DNA of 38,835 nucleotides from Candidatus Acidiferrum typicum (lineage in GTDB: Bacteria > Acidobacteriota > Terriglobia > Acidiferrales > UBA7541): the NCBI GenBank assembly GCA_025463055.1, contig JAOAPV010000006.1, forward strand, positions 1 to 38,835. The letters are read 5' to 3'. Shown piece after piece: positions 9,263-20,026 of this stretch. Every line of letters starts with the position of its first letter. The stretch's first letter is position 1. The notes below the pieces were generated by a model that saw only the letters and a list, made by a program, of their open reading frames with translations, did not search any database and was not told the origin of the DNA. The translations under genes were made by a program, and so were the position numbers.

Positions 9263-11968
9263 TTACCGGCTGGTATCGCGGAGCAGAACCGCGTCCGACT
9301 CCACATGGCCTCGTTCGAGCGCGATCTTAGTTCCATCGGGTGAAAACCGGAATCTCAGGATTTGTTCCGCCTTGAAATGCGTCAGCTGGCGAGCGGGCGA
9401 GCTATCGAGCGGTTGCTCCCACAAATTATCAACGCCTTTCTCGCGCAGAACGTACACAACCGCCGTGGGATCCGGCGCGTAGCCCAGCGGGGAGGAAGCT
9501 CGCTGGTCCAGGTCGTGATAGTTCGTCCTTTTATCCTCGATGGAGTAAAAGTTCAGCACGAGCCGATGATCCAATTCGCGTACTTCCAAGCTTACAATCG
9601 TCTTCCCATCAGGCGAAAGGGCCCAAGCGCCAATACCTTCTTTAATCAAGGTTTCCGGCTGTCCGCCCTCAAGGGGGACGCGCTTGATCGCTTGATTGTC
9701 TCCGCGATCCGTATAAAAAACCCATTGCCCGTCGCGCGAACATTCGGGTTCGCTCTCGTTGGAGCCGAAGGTAAGTTGCTTTAAGCCGGTTCCGCTGGTG
9801 TCCATCCGCCAGAGGTTCATGGACACTTTCCCGGAGCGGCCCGCCGAGCGGAACACGAAGTATTTTCCTCCTCCGCAGGCCGTGACCTCATCGGAGACGT
9901 GCTGCGCATCGGAAAACAAAACTGTTTCGCCACCCGCGGGATTCACCAATCGAATGTCCGGCGTTTGCGGCACAACCAAGCGTCCATCCGCAGCCCAATC
10001 CCATCGCCAAAAATCCCGGTGGGATGCCAGCGGCACGGGTTGTACCGCATCTGGTGAGCTTGCTAGGGCCACCTCCAGTCCGAACTGGCTCTGAATTTGG
10101 CTCACTACGATGCTTCGCCCGTCGGCGGAAATGCTCGGGTGGAAATAGTCATTGGTATCCGTGGTCAACTGGCGGAACTCGTTTTTAGCGAAGCCGACCA
10201 GCGTCAATTGCCCGTGCAGGCTGGTCATCTGGCTCACGGTCGACATCACCAGGCCACTCGCATCCGGCAGCCACACGCCGCCGAAATACAGCCGCTCCGC
10301 GGAGAACGCCTCCGTCTGCTGTTTGCCGGTCCCCACGTCAATGGCCTGCAGCCCGGAGATCGCGTCTGCCGTGGGCTGTGCAACTGGAATCACAATCGTT
10401 TTGCCATTAGGCGACCAGGCTGGCTCAAAGCTGTTGCTGGCCAGCGGAGCATTGCTCAGCAGAGTACGGTCGGGCGAGCCATCACTATGCGCGATCAGCA
10501 AGTCCCAGAAAGGACTGTCATGGCGCTCGCGCATGAAGGCGAAGCGCTGTCCATCCGGAGAAAAGGTGATCGGGCTATCGACATCCCTGATCAGCAAGTG
10601 CGGCGTACCACCCAGGACCGGCGCGCGATATAGCGACGCCATGGTGTGCTCCGCCTCATCACGCCGCACGCAATAGATGTAGCTGCCATCGGGAGAAAAG
10701 GTCAGCCCCGCGTACCGGGTGGCCGCCGGTGGCACCACCTGCGTGTTGCTCATCGTGGGGATATGCCGAAGCCACAGCGATTGCAGGCCGTTCTCATCGC
10801 GCACATGCAGGAGGTATTTTCCGTCTGGCGAAAGCGCCGCGAGGGATACATGACCGTTATTCGTCAGATTTTCGATTGAGAAATGCTCGAACGGCAAATG
10901 GCGCCCTCGCTGCAAAAAGGAGTACACGCCGAAGGCAGCCGCAGCAATCACCAGGGCCACTCCTGCTGCGGTAAGCCCCGCGCCAAATTTGTTTTTTCGC
11001 GCAGCTTCGACGATCACGGAGCCGCTGGCCTTTGCCACTGGAGCGCCTTGCCGCGCCGCGCTGTCTCCCGGTGCCGCGGAGACCCTCGCCGACGATACCG
11101 CAACGGTTCGCCCGGAGTCGCTCTCGCGCTGCAATCGTTTCAAATCGGCGCGCAGCTCCGCGGCGACTTGATAGCGCACCTCGCGATCCTTTTCGAGCGC
11201 CTTGTTCAGAATGCGTTCGAGCTCCGGCGGGACCGCAGGGTTCAGGGCGACAGGAGCTACAGGCGCTGTGTTCAAGATATTGTCGAACACTACCGCGCTA
11301 GTCGAGCCGGGGAATGGGTGCTTTCCTGTGAGCATCTGGTACAGAACTGCGCCCAGCGAGAACAGGTCGCTCCGTCCGTCTAGCTCTTCGCCGCGCGCTT
11401 GCTCCGGCGACATATAGGCAACGGTTCCTACGGCCGTCCCTGGACTCGTCAGCAAGTGGCTGTTAACGACAGTGTCCCCGCCCACGGTTTCTTCCGCGCC
11501 TTCCAGCAACTTGGCCAATCCGAAGTCCAGGATTTTCACCGTTCCGCGCTCGGTGACAAAAATGTTGCCCGGCTTAATGTCGCGATGCACGATTCCTTTT
11601 TTGTGGGCGGCATCCAGGGCATCGGCGAGCTGTATACCAATCTCCAGAACGCGAGGAATCGGCAGAGGGGACTGTGCCAGCACCTTATCCAGCGACTGGC
11701 CTTCCAGCAGTTCCATGGAGATAAAAGTGCGACCGGCGTTTTCTTCGATGGCGTGAATGGTGCAGATGCCTGGATGGTTCAGGGCCGAGGCCGCACGCGC
11801 CTCGCGCACGAACCGCTCAAGCGATGTGGCGTCCTTATTCTCGGTCGGCAAAAACTTTAGAGCGACACGTCGACCAAGCTTGGTGTCCTCGGCTTCATAG
11901 ACCACACCCATGCCGCCACCGCCGACTTTGCGGAGAATCTGATAGTGCGCGATGAGCTGGCCTTCCAT
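9263..11968 (-). CDS. Ser/Thr protein kinase with C-terminal PD40/TolB-like beta-propeller
   Basis: This membrane-anchored Hanks-type kinase probably couples an extracytoplasmic propeller to phosphorylation inside the cell. From ATG 11968 (901 residues) the kinase domain starts at once: glycine loop GGGGMG at 16-21, Lys38 in VALKFLP, HRDIKPGN with Asp130, DFG at 148-150, SPEQARGEELDGRSD. A single membrane helix lies at about 329-352. The rest is a series of PD40-type blades with repeats such as LSPDGKYLLHV, FSPDGSYIYCV, FSPDGQRFAFM, WSPNGKTIVIP and FSPDGTKIALE. The architecture is widespread in Acidobacteriota. The open frame continues upstream to 12016 without a better start. A VWFA-type gene lies upstream on the same strand. 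Confidence 0.93.
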   Translation of the reverse strand: MEGQLIAHYQILRKVGGGGMGVVYEAEDTKLGRRVALKFLPTENKDATSLERFVREARAASALNHPGICTIHAIEENAGRTFISMELLEGQSLDKVLAQSPLPIPRVLEIGIQLADALDAAHKKGIVHRDIKPGNIFVTERGTVKILDFGLAKLLEGAEETVGGDTVVNSHLLTSPGTAVGTVAYMSPEQARGEELDGRSDLFSLGAVLYQMLTGKHPFPGSTSAVVFDNILNTAPVAPVALNPAVPPELERILNKALEKDREVRYQVAAELRADLKRLQRESDSGRTVAVSSARVSAAPGDSAARQGAPVAKASGSVIVEAARKNKFGAGLTAAGVALVIAAAAFGVYSFLQRGRHLPFEHFSIENLTNNGHVSLAALSPDGKYLLHVRDENGLQSLWLRHIPTMSNTQVVPPAATRYAGLTFSPDGSYIYCVRRDEAEHTMASLYRAPVLGGTPHLLIRDVDSPITFSPDGQRFAFMRERHDSPFWDLLIAHSDGSPDRTLLSNAPLASNSFEPAWSPNGKTIVIPVAQPTADAISGLQAIDVGTGKQQTEAFSAERLYFGGVWLPDASGLVMSTVSQMTSLHGQLTLVGFAKNEFRQLTTDTNDYFHPSISADGRSIVVSQIQSQFGLEVALASSPDAVQPVPLASHRDFWRWDWAADGRLVVPQTPDIRLVNPAGGETVLFSDAQHVSDEVTACGGGKYFVFRSAGRSGKVSMNLWRMDTSGTGLKQLTFGSNESEPECSRDGQWVFYTDRGDNQAIKRVPLEGGQPETLIKEGIGAWALSPDGKTIVSLEVRELDHRLVLNFYSIEDKRTNYHDLDQRASSPLGYAPDPTAVVYVLREKGVDNLWEQPLDSSPARQLTHFKAEQILRFRFSPDGTKIALERGHVESDAVLLRDTSR

Positions 11969-12132
11969 GTTGTTTGTGGAGCAACAAATAGTAGACGCTG
12001 CCGCGGATGCGGTCAATGTTCGTTACGAGTTGGAATTGGAGCGTGCTTCCTGGAGTGCGCCGATCTTATATCCTGAGCTGCGAAGTGCCGCGGATTCTCC
12101 CGAGAAAACCCGATAATAGCATCTAACGCGTG

Positions 12133-13104
12133 CTATTCCTTGGGAGCGTAATAGCCTTTGCGGGCCAGTACCTTGAGATCGTGGTTGGACATCTCGACTT
12201 TGATCTTGCGGAATTTTCCGTCGCGCGCCGAGTTCGTGGGGTAGTAGCCCAGCGTGTATTGGCTTCGCAGCTCTTCGGAGATCTGGTCGAACGCCTCCGC
12301 GAGATGCTTCTCGGAATTGACGGAAATGGTGCGGCCCCCGGTCTCGTCGGTAATCTTGTGTGCCACGCCGCCATTCCCACCGCCAAAGTGCGGATCGGCC
12401 ACCAGCAGAATGTGCACCACGGTGTCCGTTCGCTGCGCGGCTTCGATGGCTTCTTCCAACCGAATCTTGCTGCCTTCGTCCTGCGCGTCCGTGACGATGA
12501 CAATGGCTTTCCGGCCAGCCTCGGTATTCAGCTTTTCGTTGCATGCGAGGTAGATCGCGTCGTAGAGCGCTGTTCCGGTGATTTGCCGCGAACCGACGGG
12601 TCCAGGATTGTTTCCGATACTTCCGGCCGATGGCACGTTGATGCGGGCCTTACGAATGGCCCGGTCGAGCTGACCGCGATCGTCGGTGAAATCCGACAGC
12701 AGGTCGACATCGGAATCGAAGGACATGACTAACGCTTCATCGCCCTTGCGCAGTACGCGGTCCATGAAGCGGCCGCCGGCATCTTGAATCGCGTTCAGCA
12801 TGTACTGCTCGCTGCCGGAAGTATCCAGCAGCATGGCCAAGGTAATGGGTAGGGTCACTTCCTTGGAGAAGAAAGCGATCTGCTGTGGCTGGCCGTCTTC
12901 CATGATCTTGAAGTCTTCCTGTTTCAGGTCCGTGACGATACGCTTGCTTTTGTCACGTACGGTCACGAACAGGTTCACCAGGTTGACCTGCGTACGGATT
13001 ACGGGCGGCTGCTGCGCCGGTTCCTGCGGGCGTGCAGACACGGCGGCTCCCAGGGTCACCCCCCCGGATATGCAGACCAACAGAACGTTCTTTGCAAAAC
13101 GCAT
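12133..13104 (-). CDS. Secreted VWFA-related Acidobacterial domain protein (TIGR03436 type)
   Basis: The protein has 323 residues and an N-terminal signal peptide (basic MRFAKNVLL, a hydrophobic core, and a cut near residue 24). An N-terminal beta region (QVNLVNLFVTVRDKSKR, then LKQEDFKIMEDG) is followed by a von Willebrand A domain with an intact MIDAS: DTSGS at 94-98, a conserved Thr in GTALYDAIY, and Asp in VTDAQDEGS. It ends YTLGYYPTN...KIKVEM...ARKGYYAPKE, the hallmark C-terminus of the family. Such proteins are presumed to mediate metal-dependent adhesion or protein contact in the periplasm or at the surface; no activity is proven. AAGGAAA precedes the ATG. It is divergent from the gene at 13251-14378. 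Confidence 0.92.
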   Translation of the reverse strand: MRFAKNVLLVCISGGVTLGAAVSARPQEPAQQPPVIRTQVNLVNLFVTVRDKSKRIVTDLKQEDFKIMEDGQPQQIAFFSKEVTLPITLAMLLDTSGSEQYMLNAIQDAGGRFMDRVLRKGDEALVMSFDSDVDLLSDFTDDRGQLDRAIRKARINVPSAGSIGNNPGPVGSRQITGTALYDAIYLACNEKLNTEAGRKAIVIVTDAQDEGSKIRLEEAIEAAQRTDTVVHILLVADPHFGGGNGGVAHKITDETGGRTISVNSEKHLAEAFDQISEELRSQYTLGYYPTNSARDGKFRKIKVEMSNHDLKVLARKGYYAPKE

Positions 13105-13250
13105 GTATAATTTCCTTGTTCGAGAATACCCGGTCAGAAGTGCCCGCTGCTAGATCGCTCCCCCCGTAGGATGCGGAGAGGCGCGGCGCGGGATGCGTGA
13201 CTCGGCCCGCCGGAATTGCTGGATACCGCAGAAAGTTTGGCCTGAGGACC

Positions 13251-14378
13251 ATGAAAAGTCTACGAAAAATCGCTGTTGCGGCTATCGCCGTTCTTCCCGG
13301 CTTTGTTGCTTATGTTGCGGCGCAGACCGGCGGCCAGCCGGCGCCTGCGACGGGCTCCCTACAAAGTGGATCTTCGCAGACTGCTCAGTCTCAATCCTCC
13401 GCTCCGCCTCCTAGCGAGGCGCGCGCGAAAATCACCGTAAACTCCAATTTGGTTATCCTGCCGGTCACGGTTAAGGACCGCTCGGGCAATCTCGTTCCAG
13501 ACCTGCAGCGCAACGAATTTCGCGTCTTTGAAGACAATGTGGAACAGAAGATTGACGTATTCACCGCGGAAGCTTTTCCGTTGTCGATGATCATTCTTCT
13601 GGACAACGACCTGAAACAAAAAGATGGGGAGCAGGTTCGCAAGAGTCTTGATGCAGTCGTTGGGGGATTAAGCCTGGATGATGAGGCATTTATCTGCCGC
13701 TTCGACGAATTTTTCCATCCGGGAACGGGATTCACGACGGATCACGACCTGCTGCTGACGGAGCTACAGCGCACTAAGCTGGATACGGAGCCCTCCGTGG
13801 CGCCTTCCAGCGGCGGCATTGCGAATGGGCCTTCGATCAACGGACATTCGGCGATCGGCGATGCGCCGAACATAGCTTCCGCGACGATGAGCATTCGTGG
13901 GCAGTCGACCAAGGCCTTGGATGACGCGGTGTTTGGGGCATCGCAGCTTCTGCGCGACCGCAGCCGCAATCGTCGCAAGCTCATCCTGCTGATTTCCGAC
14001 GGGGCCAACGGCGGGAAAAAGAGCAACAAGATGAATTACGACAGCGTGGTGAAGACCCTGCTGCACGACAACATTGAGGTTTACAGCGTGGCGGTTGCCA
14101 GTGCGTTTCTGGAGCGCAAGTTTAACCGGCTGGTCGATTACGCCCACGATTCCGGCGGGGAAGTCTACTTTGCGGCCAAGCGCGAGACTCTGGAAGAGCT
14201 TTATTCGCGGATCAGTGAGGAAGCGCGGAACCAATACACGATTGCGTATGTGCCGCGAGGCACGGATCGCTCCGCGGACGTTCACAGCGTGGAAGTGCGG
14301 GTGAAACGCGAAGGGCTCACGATCAAGACGCGCGACAAGTATTACAGCGGTGAAATCCCCGGCGCCACCCGCCAATAG
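13251..14378 (+). CDS. VWFA-related Acidobacterial domain protein with degenerate MIDAS
   Basis: From ATG 13251 (GAGG just upstream) the protein has 375 residues with a signal peptide (MKSLRKIAVAAIAVLPGF, cut near residue 24) and a low-complexity Ser/Gln/Pro linker. The family N-terminal strand region is present (VNSNLVILPVTVKDRSGN, LQRNEFRVFEDN). The VWA domain has DNDLK at 118-122 where DxSxS is expected, so two MIDAS serines are replaced by Asp and Lys. Other core motifs remain: a long insert, then LDDAVFGASQLL, LLISDGANGGKK, and the C-terminal YTIAYVPRG...REGLTIKTRDKYYSG. The open frame starts further upstream at 13197, but the signal peptide fixes the start. Metal binding is doubtful. 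Confidence 0.9.
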   Translation: MKSLRKIAVAAIAVLPGFVAYVAAQTGGQPAPATGSLQSGSSQTAQSQSSAPPPSEARAKITVNSNLVILPVTVKDRSGNLVPDLQRNEFRVFEDNVEQKIDVFTAEAFPLSMIILLDNDLKQKDGEQVRKSLDAVVGGLSLDDEAFICRFDEFFHPGTGFTTDHDLLLTELQRTKLDTEPSVAPSSGGIANGPSINGHSAIGDAPNIASATMSIRGQSTKALDDAVFGASQLLRDRSRNRRKLILLISDGANGGKKSNKMNYDSVVKTLLHDNIEVYSVAVASAFLERKFNRLVDYAHDSGGEVYFAAKRETLEELYSRISEEARNQYTIAYVPRGTDRSADVHSVEVRVKREGLTIKTRDKYYSGEIPGATRQ

Positions 14379-14431
14379 CGTCTTTGTGGAGCGCGATTTC
14401 AGTATTTTTTCGCCTTAGGCGTGAATACCAC

Positions 14432-14460
14432 TTGACTCTGGCGCGGCTGACTCGTATATC
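14432..14460 (+). promoter_or_regulatory. Strong sigma-70-type promoter of the mini transcription unit
   Basis: TTGACT (14432-14437) and TATATC (14455-14460) are separated by exactly 17 bases. Transcription would start near 14467, giving a leader of about 66 bases before the small ORF. It lies about 50 bases after the stop of the upstream VWFA-type gene. Confidence 0.6.
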
Positions 14461-14468
14461 TCAAGCTT

Positions 14469-14503
14469 CCGGCTGTAAAAAGCCGGCGCGCTGCTAGCGC
14501 CGG
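14469..14503 (+). promoter_or_regulatory. Leader with two overlapping hairpins
   Basis: CCGGCT (14469-14474) can pair with AGCCGG (14481-14486). CCGGCGC (14483-14489) can pair with GCGCCGG (14497-14503). The two stems share bases 14483-14486, so they are mutually exclusive. They sit just after the predicted transcription start and before the Shine-Dalgarno of the 16-codon ORF. Confidence 0.4.
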
Positions 14504-14532
14504 TGAACCGCAGAGCGACACAAGGAGCTTCC

Positions 14533-14583
14533 ATGAAGAAAAAGGGTAAGAAGGACGATAAAGGCGGCAAAAAGGCCAAGTAG
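14533..14583 (+). CDS. Lysine-rich 16-residue peptide ORF
   Basis: The ORF reads MKKKGKKDDKGGKKAK and then TAG. Nine of its sixteen residues are lysine, with no hydrophobic segment, so it is not a membrane peptide or a signal sequence. A strong AAGGAG lies five bases before the ATG. It is enclosed by its own promoter (14432-14460) and a perfect hairpin-plus-T-run terminator (14605-14634), giving a predicted transcript of about 170 bases with nothing else in it. A highly basic peptide could bind RNA, DNA or a membrane surface, but that is inference from charge only. Alternatively the transcript is a small RNA in which the ORF plays a minor part. I do not recognise a named family. Confidence 0.5.
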   Translation: MKKKGKKDDKGGKKAK

Positions 14584-14604
14584 CACGCATTCTGGTTTCG
14601 ATAG

Positions 14605-14634
14605 AGGGCGCTGTGATTTTGCAGCGCCCTTTTT
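14605..14634 (+). terminator. Rho-independent terminator of the mini transcription unit
   Basis: AGGGCGCTG (14605-14613) pairs perfectly with CAGCGCCCT (14622-14630) around an eight-base loop, followed by a run of T to 14634. It lies 21 bases after the stop of the 16-codon ORF and also separates the plus-strand genes from the convergent helicase gene. Confidence 0.85.
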
Positions 14635-14741
14635 CTATGAGTGTATGCGCGCCGCGGTGCAGATTTGGACAGTACGGAGATTTACAGAAGGCTCGGAGCC
14701 GGGGCGTTGGGTGCCGAGCTAGGACGCAGCGGCGCTGTGTC

Positions 14742-17720
14742 CTACGGGGTTGCGGACAGAGTTTCCTCGTGAACGGGGCAGATGGGACGGTAGGCGCAGC
14801 TGCGGCAGATGAAGCCTTCTTTCGCGGGGAAGCTGCGCGCGCGAATATCGGCGGCGACTTCCTGCACGATTGCCAAGGCTTCGTCGAGCTGCTTTGCCGT
14901 GCGCGGCGTCTCCTGGCGAGAGTTGTCCTGCAGATAATGAAAGACCAGGCGGGCAGGATTAAGCTCGAAAATCTCTTTGGCTGCGATAGCGTAGATACTT
15001 AATTGCAGATCGCGCCGCACTTCCGAGTCTTTTTTGGGTTTTCCGGTTTTGTAATCGATGATCTCGACGTCTTTTCGTCCCAGCGAATTGATCTGGTCAA
15101 TGCGTCCTTTCAGCACGACATTATTTTCGACGGGCAGCGCGAACGTTTTTTCCAGTTCCAGGATCTCCGGCATTTCGTCGAACATGGACTGATGAAACGC
15201 GCGGAGCTGCTCCAGTCCGTCCTTCTTGTATTCGCCTTCCTGATATTCGTCCTCAAAGCCGGAGACCGACCACTCCGTTTCGAACAGGCGCTGCACTTCT
15301 TCGAATGGGAGGCGATTGCCTTTTTTGAGTTCGGCCATCACACGGCGAATGGTGGCGTGCATGACCCGGCCGAAGGTCAGCGTGGCCTTCGCGCCCTCCT
15401 GCAGCGACCACAGGTAGGCAAAAAGATACTTCTGAGGGCATTTGCGGTAGCTGTCCACCGCGGAGGGATTCAACTCGAGCGGCTCCGGCGATGCCGGAAG
15501 GAACGTTTCCGCCCAATCTGCGATCCGCGAAAAGATTTTGGGTCGCTCGATTGGCGGAGCGAACAGCGAACCCGTGGCCGCCGGCGCCTCACCGATTCGC
15601 GCACCATTTAGCGCTGCGACTGCCTGTTTGGGTGCAAGCTGCAAAATGTCGCGGCGCTGGATGCTCGGCTCCATCAAGATGTCTTCGATGAAGGGCGGGA
15701 CTCGGCCTTTTTTCTCAGCGAGCGCGGTGATGGTGAGCCGGTCTTCCGCGCGGGTCAGCGCGACGTAGAACAGTCGCCGCTCCTCTTGATTGTGGAATTG
15801 CTCTTCCGGAGCGCCTTCTTTCATGAGCGCGGGAGGAAATTCGAAGACATGCGGACGTTCCGGCTGCGGGAATTTATTCTTGTTCACGCGCAGCACGAAG
15901 ACGTGAGAAAACTCCAGCCCCTTGGCACCGTGTACGGTCATCAGCCGCACAGCATCGCCCGGGGCATCCTCTTCGAGGCAGATTGCGCCGCCGGCTTGTT
16001 CGAAATAATCCAGATACTCGATAAATTCCGGCAGCTTGCGCGTCTCGCTCTTGTCTTCCCACTCCTTGACGAATTCCGCCAGGCGTTTGATGTAGCCGCG
16101 GTCTTGCTCCGGAGCACGCTGATAGATTTCGAGCCAGTCAAAAAGCTCCGCGACAATGTGGCGGGCATCGCGGCGCTTCATAGTCTTGCGCTGCGCGGTA
16201 GTAAATTCGAGCAACTCGACTATGGCGCTGTGCGACGGATCAAAAGGCAGCGGCGGCTGTTGCGTTTGCAGCACGTCGTAAATCCTTGTGCGCTCTTTGC
16301 GGGCGCGCTCGGCAAAACGCACGAGGTCGGGAGGCGCAAGCTGCCAGGCGGGGGCTGCCAGCACGCGCGCAGTAGCGATGTCATCATACGGCGTCGCGAT
16401 GAGTCGGAGGTAGGCGAGCACATCTTTAACGAGCGGATGCTCCAGGATCGAGAGCCGCGAAATGACAAACGGAATTTTGCGGCGCGCAAGCTCGCGCACA
16501 AGTTCGTCTCGATGGCCGTGCGCTCGGTATAGAACAGCGAAGTCGCGCCAGCGACGGCCGGCTTTGTGAATGCGTTCAAGCTCGGAAGCAACCCAGCGAG
16601 CTTCGTCTTCAGGAGCGGCCAATTCCACAATACGAATTTTTTCGCCTTCGGGTTTATTCGAACTCAGCACTTTTTTCGGAAAATCCGCGCTGACAGTGTT
16701 CTGGCCGATGACTTGGGTGGCGACCCGCAAAATATTGGGAGTGGATCGGTAATTCTCCGTGAGGCTGACGCGGAACTTGGTCGAATCCTGGCTTTCGCGC
16801 CAGCCGGCAAAGCGTTCGAGAAAAAGCTTGAAGCTGCCGAAAGAAGCGCCGCGAAACCGGTAAATGGCCTGGTCATTGTCACCGACTGCGAAAATGTTTT
16901 TCGAATCATTGACGAGCAGCTCTAGCAGCCGGAGTTGCGCGATATTGGTGTCCTGAAATTCGTCAACCAGAATGTAGCGATAGCGAATTTGCAGCGTCGT
17001 GCGGAGAGCGCTATCGCGCTCGAGTAACCCGACTGCGCCGGTGATAAGCGTACCAAAGGAAGAAGACTTCTTTTCGCGGAGCAGCTCTTCGCTGGCGCGG
17101 TAGGCTCGGGCAATTTCTTGTTCGCGCGCCACGGCCTCCTCGCGCTCAGCCAGCGTGTCCTCATCGAGTTGGTTGCGCTCGGCTTGTAGCCGGGCGACGA
17201 GTTCATCGACATAACCCTGGTAGTCCTCGCAGGAGACCAGCTCATCCTGGCAGCGCGAAAAAAACTCCACGAAGTCGTTGAGGAACTGGCCCGGCTCGGC
17301 GAGACGGCGGTAGCGATCGAGCTGCAACCTCGAAAGATTGCGGCGCAGCAGGATCCAATGATCGACCTTATCCAGCATGCGGCTCTGCGGGTCGGTGTCT
17401 TTCAGGATGGACTCGCAAAAGGCGTGGAACGTTTTCAGAGTGACATCCTTGCCCCGCTCACCGACCGTTCTTACCACTCGAGCCTTCATCTCACCGGCTG
17501 CCTTATCGGTGAAGGTCAGTCCCAGAATATTTTCGCCGGAAAGGTTTGGATCGGACTGCAACAAGTGGCGTATGCGCTCGGTAATTACGCGGGTCTTGCC
17601 CGTACCTGCGCCAGCGATGACCAGCAGCGGTCCTTCGACATGCATGATGGCGCGCCGCTGTGCGTCATTGAGTTTCAGGCCGGTGTCGGCCAAGGGCTCG
17701 AGATCAAAAAGTGTGCGCAT
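14742..17720 (-). CDS. UvrD-family DNA helicase with C-terminal PD-(D/E)XK nuclease and Fe-S-type cysteines
   Basis: The 992-residue protein is predicted to unwind and cut DNA ends in recombinational repair, in the manner of RecB/AddA-type helicase-nucleases. Superfamily 1 motifs occur in order: Walker A GAGTGKT at 37-43, TFTDKAAGEM, TFHAFC, DEFQD at 253-257, GDNDQAIYRFRGA, LTENYRS, TVHGAKGLEFSHVF and YVALTRAEDRL. After a linker comes a nuclease domain with GRID (Asp875) and IDYKTGK (Asp889, Lys891), then QLSIYA. One early cysteine in YRKCPQKY plus Cys972, Cys975 and Cys981 (CRSCAYRPIC) match the four-cysteine iron-sulphur arrangement of AddB/Cas4-type nucleases. No addB-like partner lies nearby. 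It is 64 bases downstream of a VWFA gene on the same strand. Confidence 0.93.
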   Translation of the reverse strand: MRTLFDLEPLADTGLKLNDAQRRAIMHVEGPLLVIAGAGTGKTRVITERIRHLLQSDPNLSGENILGLTFTDKAAGEMKARVVRTVGERGKDVTLKTFHAFCESILKDTDPQSRMLDKVDHWILLRRNLSRLQLDRYRRLAEPGQFLNDFVEFFSRCQDELVSCEDYQGYVDELVARLQAERNQLDEDTLAEREEAVAREQEIARAYRASEELLREKKSSSFGTLITGAVGLLERDSALRTTLQIRYRYILVDEFQDTNIAQLRLLELLVNDSKNIFAVGDNDQAIYRFRGASFGSFKLFLERFAGWRESQDSTKFRVSLTENYRSTPNILRVATQVIGQNTVSADFPKKVLSSNKPEGEKIRIVELAAPEDEARWVASELERIHKAGRRWRDFAVLYRAHGHRDELVRELARRKIPFVISRLSILEHPLVKDVLAYLRLIATPYDDIATARVLAAPAWQLAPPDLVRFAERARKERTRIYDVLQTQQPPLPFDPSHSAIVELLEFTTAQRKTMKRRDARHIVAELFDWLEIYQRAPEQDRGYIKRLAEFVKEWEDKSETRKLPEFIEYLDYFEQAGGAICLEEDAPGDAVRLMTVHGAKGLEFSHVFVLRVNKNKFPQPERPHVFEFPPALMKEGAPEEQFHNQEERRLFYVALTRAEDRLTITALAEKKGRVPPFIEDILMEPSIQRRDILQLAPKQAVAALNGARIGEAPAATGSLFAPPIERPKIFSRIADWAETFLPASPEPLELNPSAVDSYRKCPQKYLFAYLWSLQEGAKATLTFGRVMHATIRRVMAELKKGNRLPFEEVQRLFETEWSVSGFEDEYQEGEYKKDGLEQLRAFHQSMFDEMPEILELEKTFALPVENNVVLKGRIDQINSLGRKDVEIIDYKTGKPKKDSEVRRDLQLSIYAIAAKEIFELNPARLVFHYLQDNSRQETPRTAKQLDEALAIVQEVAADIRARSFPAKEGFICRSCAYRPICPVHEETLSATP

Positions 17721-17784
17721 GTTTTAGAAAGCTGGGATAAAGAAGCGTAACGGATTGCGAGGCGAAGGGGAAGCGAAAGTTGAC

Positions 17785-18906
17785 TTAGGGCTGATTTGCC
17801 GAACCGGATGGATTTGTGGAGGGCGGGCGGTTGCTGTTGGCTTTTGCATAGTAGCCGCGGCGAGCACGCACCTGGTAGCCCTTGTGGTCCGGTACTTCAA
17901 TACGGATCTTGTGATATTTGCCGTCAAACTGCGAATGGGTGGGAATGTAAGCGATGGAATATTGATTGCGTAGCTCGTCGCCGATGTCCTGGAAGGATTG
18001 GTCGAGATCGTCCACGTGATAAGGGTAGAATGCACGGCCCCCGGTTTCCTCCGCCAAATCTTGCAGAATCTTATCGCCCTCGGTGAGATGCGTCTTGCGG
18101 TTGGCGGCCTTGTCCGGGTTGGTCTGCGAAAGCTGAATCCATTGCGTGCTGGTGCTGATTGTGTAAATGACCACGCTGTAACGCTGCGCCATCTCAATAG
18201 CTTCGGAGCGCGTGTGATTGGAGAGATTGTCGTCGCCATCGCTAATTAGGATCATCACACGGCGGACGACGTCCGGCTGGTCGCCGGGCGGACGGGGCGG
18301 ATGGCTTAATTCCTTCTCGCATGCATTGTAGATTGCGTCGTAAACCGCGGTGCCGCCGCCGGCGCGCGTCTTTACGATCTCATCGCGCAAACGGCCCGCG
18401 TCGTCAGTAAAGGCCTGGAGGACCGAAGGCTCATCGTCGAAGGTCATCACAAAGGCCTGGTCTTTGTTGTGCCGCAGGACGCTAAAGAGAAACGAAGTGG
18501 CGGCGTCCTGCTCGAATTTGAGGCGGTCGCGAATGCTATTGGAAGTGTCCATGAGCAGGCCGATGCGCAGCGGCAGGTCGGTTTGCCGGCTGAAATAGCG
18601 GATGGCCTCCGGAGCTTTGTCATCCCAGATCTTGAAGTCGTCCTTTTCCAGGTCCGGGACGAGCTTATTGCGACGATTGAGAACGGTGAAGAGGACGTCG
18701 ACGAGGTTAACGACCTGAGTGATTTTGCCCTGATCTTGCCGCTCGGGGCTTTGCTCTTGCGGAGATGGGGGCTGAGGGGGCGCGGGCTGTTGTGGGGCAC
18801 CCTGCCGCTTCTCCGGCACGCCGCTAGAGGATTGCTGTGCGCGATCGCCTGGAATTGCGAGGAGCAGCGCTACAACGAGAACGAGCGAGATAGAAATCCG
18901 ACGCAT
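17785..18906 (-). CDS. Secreted VWFA-related Acidobacterial domain protein, third copy
   Basis: The protein has 373 residues with a signal peptide (MRRISISLVLVVALLLAI, cut near residue 23) and a Pro/Gln-rich linker to about residue 60. The family N-terminal strands follow (VVNLVDVLFTVLNRRNK, LEKDDFKIWDD), then a VWA domain with intact MIDAS: DTSNS at 120-124, Thr in GTAVYDAIYNAC and Asp in ISDGDDN. The C-terminal YSIAYIPTHSQ...KIRIEV...RARRGYYAK is typical. It follows the rluD-like gene on the same strand, 9 bases after that stop, so it may be expressed with the ileS-side genes. Among the three VWFA-type proteins here, this one and 12133-13104 keep metal-binding residues. Confidence 0.92.
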   Translation of the reverse strand: MRRISISLVLVVALLLAIPGDRAQQSSSGVPEKRQGAPQQPAPPQPPSPQEQSPERQDQGKITQVVNLVDVLFTVLNRRNKLVPDLEKDDFKIWDDKAPEAIRYFSRQTDLPLRIGLLMDTSNSIRDRLKFEQDAATSFLFSVLRHNKDQAFVMTFDDEPSVLQAFTDDAGRLRDEIVKTRAGGGTAVYDAIYNACEKELSHPPRPPGDQPDVVRRVMILISDGDDNLSNHTRSEAIEMAQRYSVVIYTISTSTQWIQLSQTNPDKAANRKTHLTEGDKILQDLAEETGGRAFYPYHVDDLDQSFQDIGDELRNQYSIAYIPTHSQFDGKYHKIRIEVPDHKGYQVRARRGYYAKANSNRPPSTNPSGSANQP

Positions 18907-18915
18907 GTGAATTGA

Positions 18916-19926
18916 TTATAGGTAGCTGGCGAGGGCAGCGTCAATTCGCTGGGGAGATTCGCCGGCTGCGGCGCTGAGGTGCTGCAAAAATTCGCGCAGA
19001 TCTTGCGGAAGTGGAGCGCGGAGTTCGATCCATGCGCCGGTGCGCGGTTGCGTGAAGCCGATGTTGGCAGCGTGGAGGAAATTGCGGGCTAGCGGCGGCA
19101 GCGTGATCTTGCCGATCCGAAGTTGTGCCGCCGCGCCGTACAACGTGTCACCAACCACCGGATGCCGGACAGTGGAGAAATGCACACGGATCTGGTGCGT
19201 GCGACCAGTGTGGAGGTGAACTTCGACGAGACTAGTGCTGCCGATTCGCGCGATTGCGCGCCAGTCTGTGCGCGCTTCACGCGCATTGCCGAGCACGATG
19301 CTGCGGCGCGCGGTCATGCGCGTGCGATGTTTGGGGTCGCGCATGATGGCTAGCTCAATGCGGCCATGTTCTTCCTTGAGATGACCTTCTAGAAGGGCGA
19401 TATAGGTTTTCTTCACTTGGCGCTGACGAAATGATTCGGCGAGCTTCGCGTGGGCGGCATCGTTTTTCGCGACAAGGATTATGCCGGAGGTGTCTTTGTC
19501 GAGCCGATGCACGATTCCAGGGCGAAGCGCGTCGCCACCCTGCGACAGCGCCTGGCCGCGGCCGAGCAGCGCGTTTACCAGCGTGCCGCGCGGATTGCCG
19601 GCGCCGGCGTGCACGGTCATGCCGGCCGGTTTGTTGACGGCGATGACGTCTTCATCTTCGTACAAGATTTCGAGGGGAATGGATTCGGGTTCGGCGCGGA
19701 GGGGAGGACGAGGCTGGATTTCTACGCTGATGCGTTCGCCGCTGCGGACACGATGAGAGCCTTTCGCGGGGTGGGAATTGACGAGCACCAGGCCACTGTC
19801 GATAAGTTCTTGCGCGCGCGTTCGGCTAAGTGTGAATCGAGAGGCAATTTCTTGATCGAGACGGTGCCCTGCTTCGCCTTCAGTAACGACGAATTCGTGA
19901 AGCGAAGGTTCGTTGCTCTGGCTCAC
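18916..19926 (-). CDS. RluD-family pseudouridine synthase
   Basis: RluA/RluC/RluD enzymes convert uridines in 23S rRNA or tRNA to pseudouridine. The protein starts with an S4 RNA-binding domain (HRLDQEIASRFTLSRTRAQELIDSGLVLVN) followed by the catalytic domain with RPGIVHRLDKDTSGI, in which Asp143 is the expected nucleophile. Also conserved are VNKPAGMTVHAGAG, KTYIALLEG and HTGRTHQIRVH. The open frame runs up to 20109 into lspA, but the S4 domain and normal family length point to the GTG at 19926 (336 residues), though no strong Shine-Dalgarno precedes it. The ileS-lspA-rluD order is common in bacteria. I do not assign a specific rRNA target, although RluD-type (1911/1915/1917) is most likely. 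Confidence 0.9.
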   Translation of the reverse strand: MSQSNEPSLHEFVVTEGEAGHRLDQEIASRFTLSRTRAQELIDSGLVLVNSHPAKGSHRVRSGERISVEIQPRPPLRAEPESIPLEILYEDEDVIAVNKPAGMTVHAGAGNPRGTLVNALLGRGQALSQGGDALRPGIVHRLDKDTSGIILVAKNDAAHAKLAESFRQRQVKKTYIALLEGHLKEEHGRIELAIMRDPKHRTRMTARRSIVLGNAREARTDWRAIARIGSTSLVEVHLHTGRTHQIRVHFSTVRHPVVGDTLYGAAAQLRIGKITLPPLARNFLHAANIGFTQPRTGAWIELRAPLPQDLREFLQHLSAAAGESPQRIDAALASYL

Positions 19927-20026
19927 GCGGAGATTGTAGCAGCGGTTCGCGCGATACAACCTCGGATGCAGGCGTGATTGCGAGCCAATAATCGCGGGAG
20001 CCTCCAAAAAATAGGGCGCTCTACCG

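Follow-up and report, generated by a model that had tools for sequence, protein, structure and literature searches.

Short transcripts which carry both a small ORF and base-pairing sites, as is predicted in some genera for the RNA described in this work, are known from other bacteria. SgrS/SgrT of enteric bacteria is organized in this manner, and according to the account given in PMC4021124 the RNA has been kept, and the ORF is absent, in some species. Small protein and base-pairing similarly reside in one RNA in Vibrio cholerae, where VcdRP encodes the 29-residue VcdP, as presented in PMC8672173. In Table 1 of PMC9029176 the distinct annotated sRNAs of the Acidobacteria as a whole number four, and Acido-1 and Acido-Lenti-1 (RF01686, RF01687) are, like the RNAs analyzed here, non-coding RNA candidates of the phylum, as described in PMC2864571. 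A literature search of partial coverage retrieved no paper on the unit under study, called unit A, or on its predicted pairing partner, called sRNA B, which is apparently undescribed.

The window, that is the whole stretch of 38,835 nucleotides of Candidatus Acidiferrum typicum DNA that was analyzed, hosts a unit A between a gene for a VWFA-related acidobacterial protein (TIGR03436; 13197-14378, plus strand) and a convergent gene for a UvrD-like helicase with a PD-(D/E)XK nuclease domain (14742-17720, minus strand). Both are syntenic neighbours of the unit. More VWA-domain proteins are encoded on the minus strand at 12133-13104 and 17785-18906, on both sides of the VWFA-UvrD pair. The elements listed in the preliminary description are read directly on the plus strand as claimed. 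A near-consensus promoter of the sigma-70 type (14432-14460) consists of TTGACT at 14432-14437, a 17-base spacer and TATATC at 14455-14460; the SD (Shine-Dalgarno) sequence AAGGAG (14522-14527) lies 5 bases 5' of the ATG at 14533; an ORF of 16 codons plus TAG (51 bases, 14533-14583) encodes MKKKGKKDDKGGKKAK, in which 9 of the 16 residues are lysines; the intrinsic terminator (14606-14634) is a hairpin formed by GGGCGCTG and CAGCGCCC at 14606-14629, followed by five T residues at 14630-14634. The same description held that nothing else lies within these roughly 200 bases, but the 5' leader (14466-14532, its start placed from the -10 box) is not empty, and contains two G+C-rich inverted repeats at about 14468-14503. 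R1 and R2, motifs of unit A in other genera, are absent from it.

The association of promoter, SD, ORF and terminator is beyond chance. The pattern TTGAC-N18-TATA occurs once in the 38.8-kb window, against 0.03 occurrences expected, and AGGAG-N4..9-ATG(AAR)3 once in the window and in none of 100 shuffles. Promoter and terminator were both unlisted in a simple consensus scan of positions 10000-20000, the former because the scan rule requires T at position 6 of the -10 box, which is C here, the latter plausibly because the stem was extended into the T-run. The predicted transcript is about 168-169 nt long, and the 169-nt fold has a free energy of -60.4 kcal/mol (z -2.0), which 8 of 200 shuffled sequences equalled or bettered. 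The window contains no tRNA and no Rfam match at gathering score, and the Rfam matches over 14379-14741 are weak and far below gathering.

Conservation in the genus of the window was surveyed by using the UvrD end as anchor (36 of 36 genomes), pattern searches, and the VWFA end. At the DNA level the segment matches 14 of 101 genomes, its own included; the best match (G022) covers 231/301 bases. Both of the matches beyond the genus are short. At the same locus, 20 of the 36 genus genomes (G026, G030, G020, G021 and G007 among them) have a lysine-rich ORF with an SD before it, which encodes peptides such as MKKKGKKDDKGGKKGK, MKKKAKKDEKKGPKKGK, MAKKSKKEEMKKGGKKGK and MKNKPKREAKKQPKKKGK. The order promoter-ORF-terminator, proposed as a check of the gene in relatives, is thus conserved: the TTGAC-TATA promoter with 17-base spacing is found in 17 of the 20 units, the hairpin plus T-run in all of them. 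Units lacking the TTGAC promoter are those of G010, G007 and G002, the last being a weak member with a GTG start and a diverged peptide. In G020 and G021 the unit is separated from UvrD by other genes, and is still beside VWFA. No ORF was found near VWFA/UvrD in 15 of the 36 genomes, and in G015 the locus is unreadable at a contig end. Relatives which keep the flanking genes and lose the unit, listed beforehand as evidence against a gene, therefore do exist, but side by side with the 20 which keep the ORF. In those 15 genomes a short gap or other sequence is found and no decayed frame, which suggests that the unit as a whole was lost or replaced. In six genus genomes without the unit (L024, L026, L033, L044, L047, L050) the VWFA-UvrD gap measures 427-531 bases, and by appearance possibly hosts a small opposite-strand gene. 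RNAalifold detected almost no common structure in 13 genus units (-1.95 kcal/mol), several of which had been trimmed too early.

The unit is also carried by public contigs, whose titles name Acidobacteria (in several cases "gp2"), Terriglobia or Candidatus Acidoferrales. A pattern scan of public contigs gave 18 stretches, 13 of which are acidobacterial MAG contigs (1 Terriglobia, 1 Candidatus Acidoferrales). The same unit, with the same promoter, is found at 1867-1920 of L072, a contig of 3.3 kb from a MAG that is filed under Proteobacteria; the contig is probably acidobacterial and misbinned. Matches in Bacillus, Ignavibacteria and Kapaibacterium contigs were dropped for lack of an in-frame stop at the end of the pattern, and a 15-residue lysine-rich frame of Portnoybacteria (L075) was judged unrelated, given its AT-rich setting and the lack of both an evident SD and this promoter. 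Searching the phylum with SD plus MKKKxKK identified 4 of 396 genomes; the other three hits open frames of 218, 366 and 318 residues, and do not belong to this family. For the same kind of reason a second MKKK ORF of the genome of the window (G000:C119), start of a 154-residue protein, and one in G014:C14, start of a 47-residue protein, were set aside.

Substitutions in the ORF bear the mark of a coding sequence. Between the ORFs of the window and of G022, dN is 0.025 and dS 0.89. Where the ORF has 17 codons (13 cases, 12 from genus genomes and one from L072), variable sites are distributed 6/7/15 among the three codon positions, and dN is lower than dS in 41 of the 41 usable pairs (of 78 in total, 37 gave no usable value), estimates which rest on 16-17 codons. 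Outside the genus, the genomes G047 and G057 of genus g13 feature 5 synonymous differences and no other. An SD-like sequence is located 5' of all 28 listed ORFs, and all 28 peptides have a net charge of +7 to +10 (+7 in the window), with 8-11 Lys of 13-18 residues and no hydrophobic stretch; the peptide is probably disordered. Frame, start and SD are conserved, and synonymous changes are in excess among relatives, as anticipated, which is what marks a small-protein gene. The comparison indicates that the codons are under purifying selection, and very probably translated. The real peptide gene that had been conjectured thus appears to exist, as a conserved 51-base gene for a 16-residue lysine-rich peptide.

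Judged from position and sequence, the unit of the window is orthologous to a locus, A, of the family. Unit A is present in 38 of the 53 family genomes outside the genus; two of the 15 unit-less genomes (G110, G114) have an unreadable locus, and were scored by the model search. The lysine-rich ORF occurs at the same locus in 7 of the 53 (G047, G057, G045, G036, G058, G044 and G055), distributed among four genera (g2, g10, g11 and g13), and spans 13-18 codons across the family; 31 of the 38 units lack it. The promoter is of similar sequence, in many cases TTCTTGAC...CGTATA, and the units which could be read to their end show, by eye, a terminator-like hairpin. Two motifs are present in all 38 units: R1, which in most of them reads GGGGAGA or GGGAGAAA, and R2, in most of them ATGCGCG (AUGCGCG-like in RNA), with a TGCGC that is invariant in 32 aligned units. 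The R1-R2 pattern was found in none of the 20 units of the genus of the window. R2 directly precedes or overlaps the ATG in ORF-bearing genera outside the genus; that it is a start codon in its own right is made unlikely by ATTGCGCG in two g5 units (G039, G128) and by missing stops. In 30 ORF-less units (g3-g8, and family f3) no SD-preceded small ORF is consistent within genera. The alternative offered in the preliminary description, a small RNA with an embedded ORF, suits in part the other genera, where promoter, terminator and RNA motifs persist without the ORF, but not the genus of the window, which very probably has a peptide gene. In a UvrD tree (81 of 89 family genomes, midpoint root) ORF-bearing genera fall on both sides of the main split, and this fits an ancestral ORF and several losses, though the ORF may have been gained repeatedly. 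Counts of changes on the tree are rough, because G121, G040 and G052 are labelled as lacking the unit, later found there. The order VWFA-promoter-terminator-UvrD is also kept in G063 (L216/L274), which belongs to another family (f3); its unit ends in AEKAEKHKK and a stop, with no obvious start codon beside an SD.

A sequence model of A was searched across the order, and matches off the locus led to B. The R1-R2 matches away from VWFA-UvrD are not extra copies of A: promoter and T-run show that in G040, G052, G049, G101, G045 and G061 they are the opposite strand of a different small gene, equipped with a promoter and a terminator of its own. Among 20 weak A-model matches examined, three correspond to B (G049, G101, G045), and 17 were dropped, since they lack such a promoter-hairpin-terminator arrangement. 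B folds into a hairpin with loop CCGCGCAUU, followed by a C-rich stretch such as UCUCCCC. In an alignment fitted to the structure, its stems covary: both partners have changed in 20 of 28 pairs, a count that averages 9.3 after shuffling and was reached by none of 500 shuffles. The covariance model of B matches 37 of 95 genomes of the order (E<=0.1; weakest 1.6e-5). All ten family genera that have R1/R2 are represented by one genome or more, but none of the 36 of the genus of the window is matched, and none of the five of g12, a genus which also lacks A. Among the 53 family genomes outside the genus, A motifs and B occur together in 29, the A motifs alone in 9 and B alone in 3, and 12 have neither (Fisher p=3.4e-4, with incomplete genomes counted and shared descent ignored). 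In all 11 genera compared, each represented by one locus, the genes that precede B are homologous to one another; B lies near position 1501 of L238, L239, L241, L242, L247, L248, L250, L251, L257, L259 and L261, beside DUF6599-type genes; DUF6599 is the Pfam family of 4 of 4 tested proteins preceding B. No Rfam family was detected at B in 13 loci (10 scanned at gathering score, 3 among seven scanned at E<=1). In the former ten the gathering matches are three tRNAs located elsewhere; in the seven further loci a single tRNA scores above gathering; 15 A loci gave no match at gathering score at the unit. A search of the class with the B model (27/200) gave 12 matches of weak score (E from 1e-5 to 6e-3). 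One of them, in G014 of the genus of the window, looks like a terminator only, and the other 11 lie outside the order. Those in f11 (5) and f6 (4) share the CTATTCTCC tail and not the CGCGCAUU loop, and those of f8 and f9 are less alike to B. Other families of the class may, on these weak scores, have RNAs that resemble B and carry a CUAUUCUCC tail.

The apical loop of B is complementary to R2, its C-rich tail to R1. R2 is almost invariant, and hence offers no covariation. At R1, cognate A and B pair at 13.67 of 18 positions, and a value of 11.46 is obtained when A and B come from different genera (30 pairs). With one genome per genus, the observed value was attained in 2 of 5000 permutations, or in 17 of 5000 if f3 is left out. 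A and B were each anchored on their own G- or C-run, and for A of G059, G108 and f3 the anchor was chosen manually, so that pairing may be slightly favoured; the f3 pair joins A of G063 to B of its congener G064, as B was not found in G063. As examples, in g10 (G055) a 16-base perfect complement surrounds GAGGGGAACAG, and in f3 GGGGAAAGTAGGTAGGGCC of A and GGGGAAAGTAGGTATGGCC, the complement of B, agree at 18 of 19 positions. In the aligned sequences R1 and its predicted site in B covary between genera. In RNAduplex at most 1 of 100 shuffles of B is as good in 25 of 31 pairings (11 of 100 in the worst, G054 and G121). Yet the own B is the best duplex partner in 3 of 10 genera only (g4, g10 and g6), so that duplex energies speak for complementarity and not for specificity; what suggests specificity is the aligned R1 test, and no other. 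In g2, g10, g11 and g13 ORF and R1/R2 occur together in 7 of 7 genomes, and B in 6 of 7, so that by complementarity the ORF transcript carries predicted pairing sites; in the genus of the window such sites are found in 0 of 20 units, and the partner B in 0 of 36 genomes.

The reading favoured in this work, and likely in our judgement, is that the segment of the window is a complete translated mini-gene, a polycation-encoding mRNA derived from an RNA with both coding and base-pairing roles. If A were instead a non-coding sRNA, conserved as such and with an incidental ORF, the 31 of 53 family genomes which keep the unit without ORF would be easily understood. However, in the genus of the window, where R1/R2 (0 of 20) and B (0 of 36) are missing, the frame, the SD and the substitutions at third positions are those of a coding sequence, and the alignment fold of 13 units points the same way, a weak argument as several were trimmed early; this hypothesis is improbable. 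Hardly better is the prospect of a type I toxin-antitoxin-like system, in which A would encode a small toxic peptide, and B be a trans-encoded antitoxin RNA covering the start region. Predicted B sites are indeed beside the SD and start codon in ORF-bearing genera outside the genus of the window, but known type I toxins are small hydrophobic membrane peptides, whereas the product of A is hydrophilic and polycationic throughout. Moreover, 20 genus genomes keep the peptide, with B found in none, and B is retained in genera that have lost the ORF.

A run of Lys codons followed by a terminator also recalls the leader peptide of a lysine-sensing attenuator. Such hypothesis has next to no credit, refuted as it is by the gene order: the next gene is convergent in the window, as UvrD is in the genus units adjoining it, and no co-oriented gene lies downstream of the terminator. 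A lineage-specific ribosomal or ribosome-associated peptide would account for a tiny, basic product expressed from a consensus-like promoter, bTHX and bL37 being short basic ribosomal proteins. Known short ribosomal peptides are strongly conserved, though, and here the peptide varies freely in sequence and in length and contains acidic residues, and 15 of 36 genus genomes are without the gene; we regard this possibility as unlikely, if slightly less so than the non-coding and toxin hypotheses.

As a mini-gene derived from a dual-function RNA, the unit would be transcribed from a housekeeping-type promoter into an mRNA of about 168 nt with one strong SD, the 16-codon ORF and the terminator. Outside the genus of the window, where ORF and B occur together, R2 adjoins the start codon, and B would therefore block translation initiation there. 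In ORF-less genera A could serve as a target mimic, or sponge, titrating B. In the genus of the window B and R1/R2 would have been lost, leaving the peptide gene alone and its mRNA free of control by B; by sequence comparison, the gene looks like the coding remnant of an RNA predicted in related genera to pair with B. Length (13-18 residues) and sequence of the peptide drift, the net charge (+7 to +10) does not, and action by charge would follow. The constant high charge, and the lack of hydrophobic stretches, let one expect a polyanion as binding partner, be it RNA, the ribosome or another. Of all steps this one is the weakest, and we give it somewhat less than an even chance. RNA motifs are kept and the ORF lost in most genera, the peptide is kept and the motifs lost in the genus of the window. 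A wider, tentative reading, rather doubtful at present, would see in A and B an order-level RNA pair, A being at once micro-peptide mRNA and pairing partner of B, with the two functions lost separately by genus. In its boldest form, the peptide would be an RNA-annealing or RNA-compacting factor acting on its own RNA circuit, become independent in the genus of the window.

The analysis points to a covarying RNA pair in Acidobacteria, one partner of which comes with a 13-18-residue peptide under purifying selection. Coding and predicted pairing roles have been kept or lost separately in a natural series, and the evolution of dual-function RNAs therefore becomes testable by comparison. Genes far below the usual length cut-off can moreover be recognised by synteny plus conservation of charge.

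Among known systems, tisB/istR-1, a type I toxin-antitoxin system with a trans-encoded antitoxin, resembles A and B in pairing the mRNA of a small peptide with a complementary RNA, but here the peptide is hydrophilic, and occurs without the RNA in one genus, as does the RNA without the peptide in others. Acido-1 and Acido-Lenti-1 are distinct from both RNAs, as no scanned A or B locus matches them at gathering score, nor any of the seven further loci at E<=1. Like the Caulobacter RNA sponge, in the description of PMC12559287, ORF-less A has two conserved sites complementary to one sRNA, with the difference that titration of B by A is presumed. VcdRP differs in size and lineage, and is likened here by description, not by sequence. 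As the base-pairing half is gone in the unit of the window, this is not a member of the dual-function sRNA class; it is a probable descendant of one. The system which by analogy would be closest in working is SgrS/SgrT. SgrT has about 40 residues and inhibits a sugar transporter, whereas the peptides of A have 13-18 residues and are polycationic; the predicted pairing partner of A is another sRNA; and the genus of the window shows the opposite loss, the peptide having been kept without the pairing sites.
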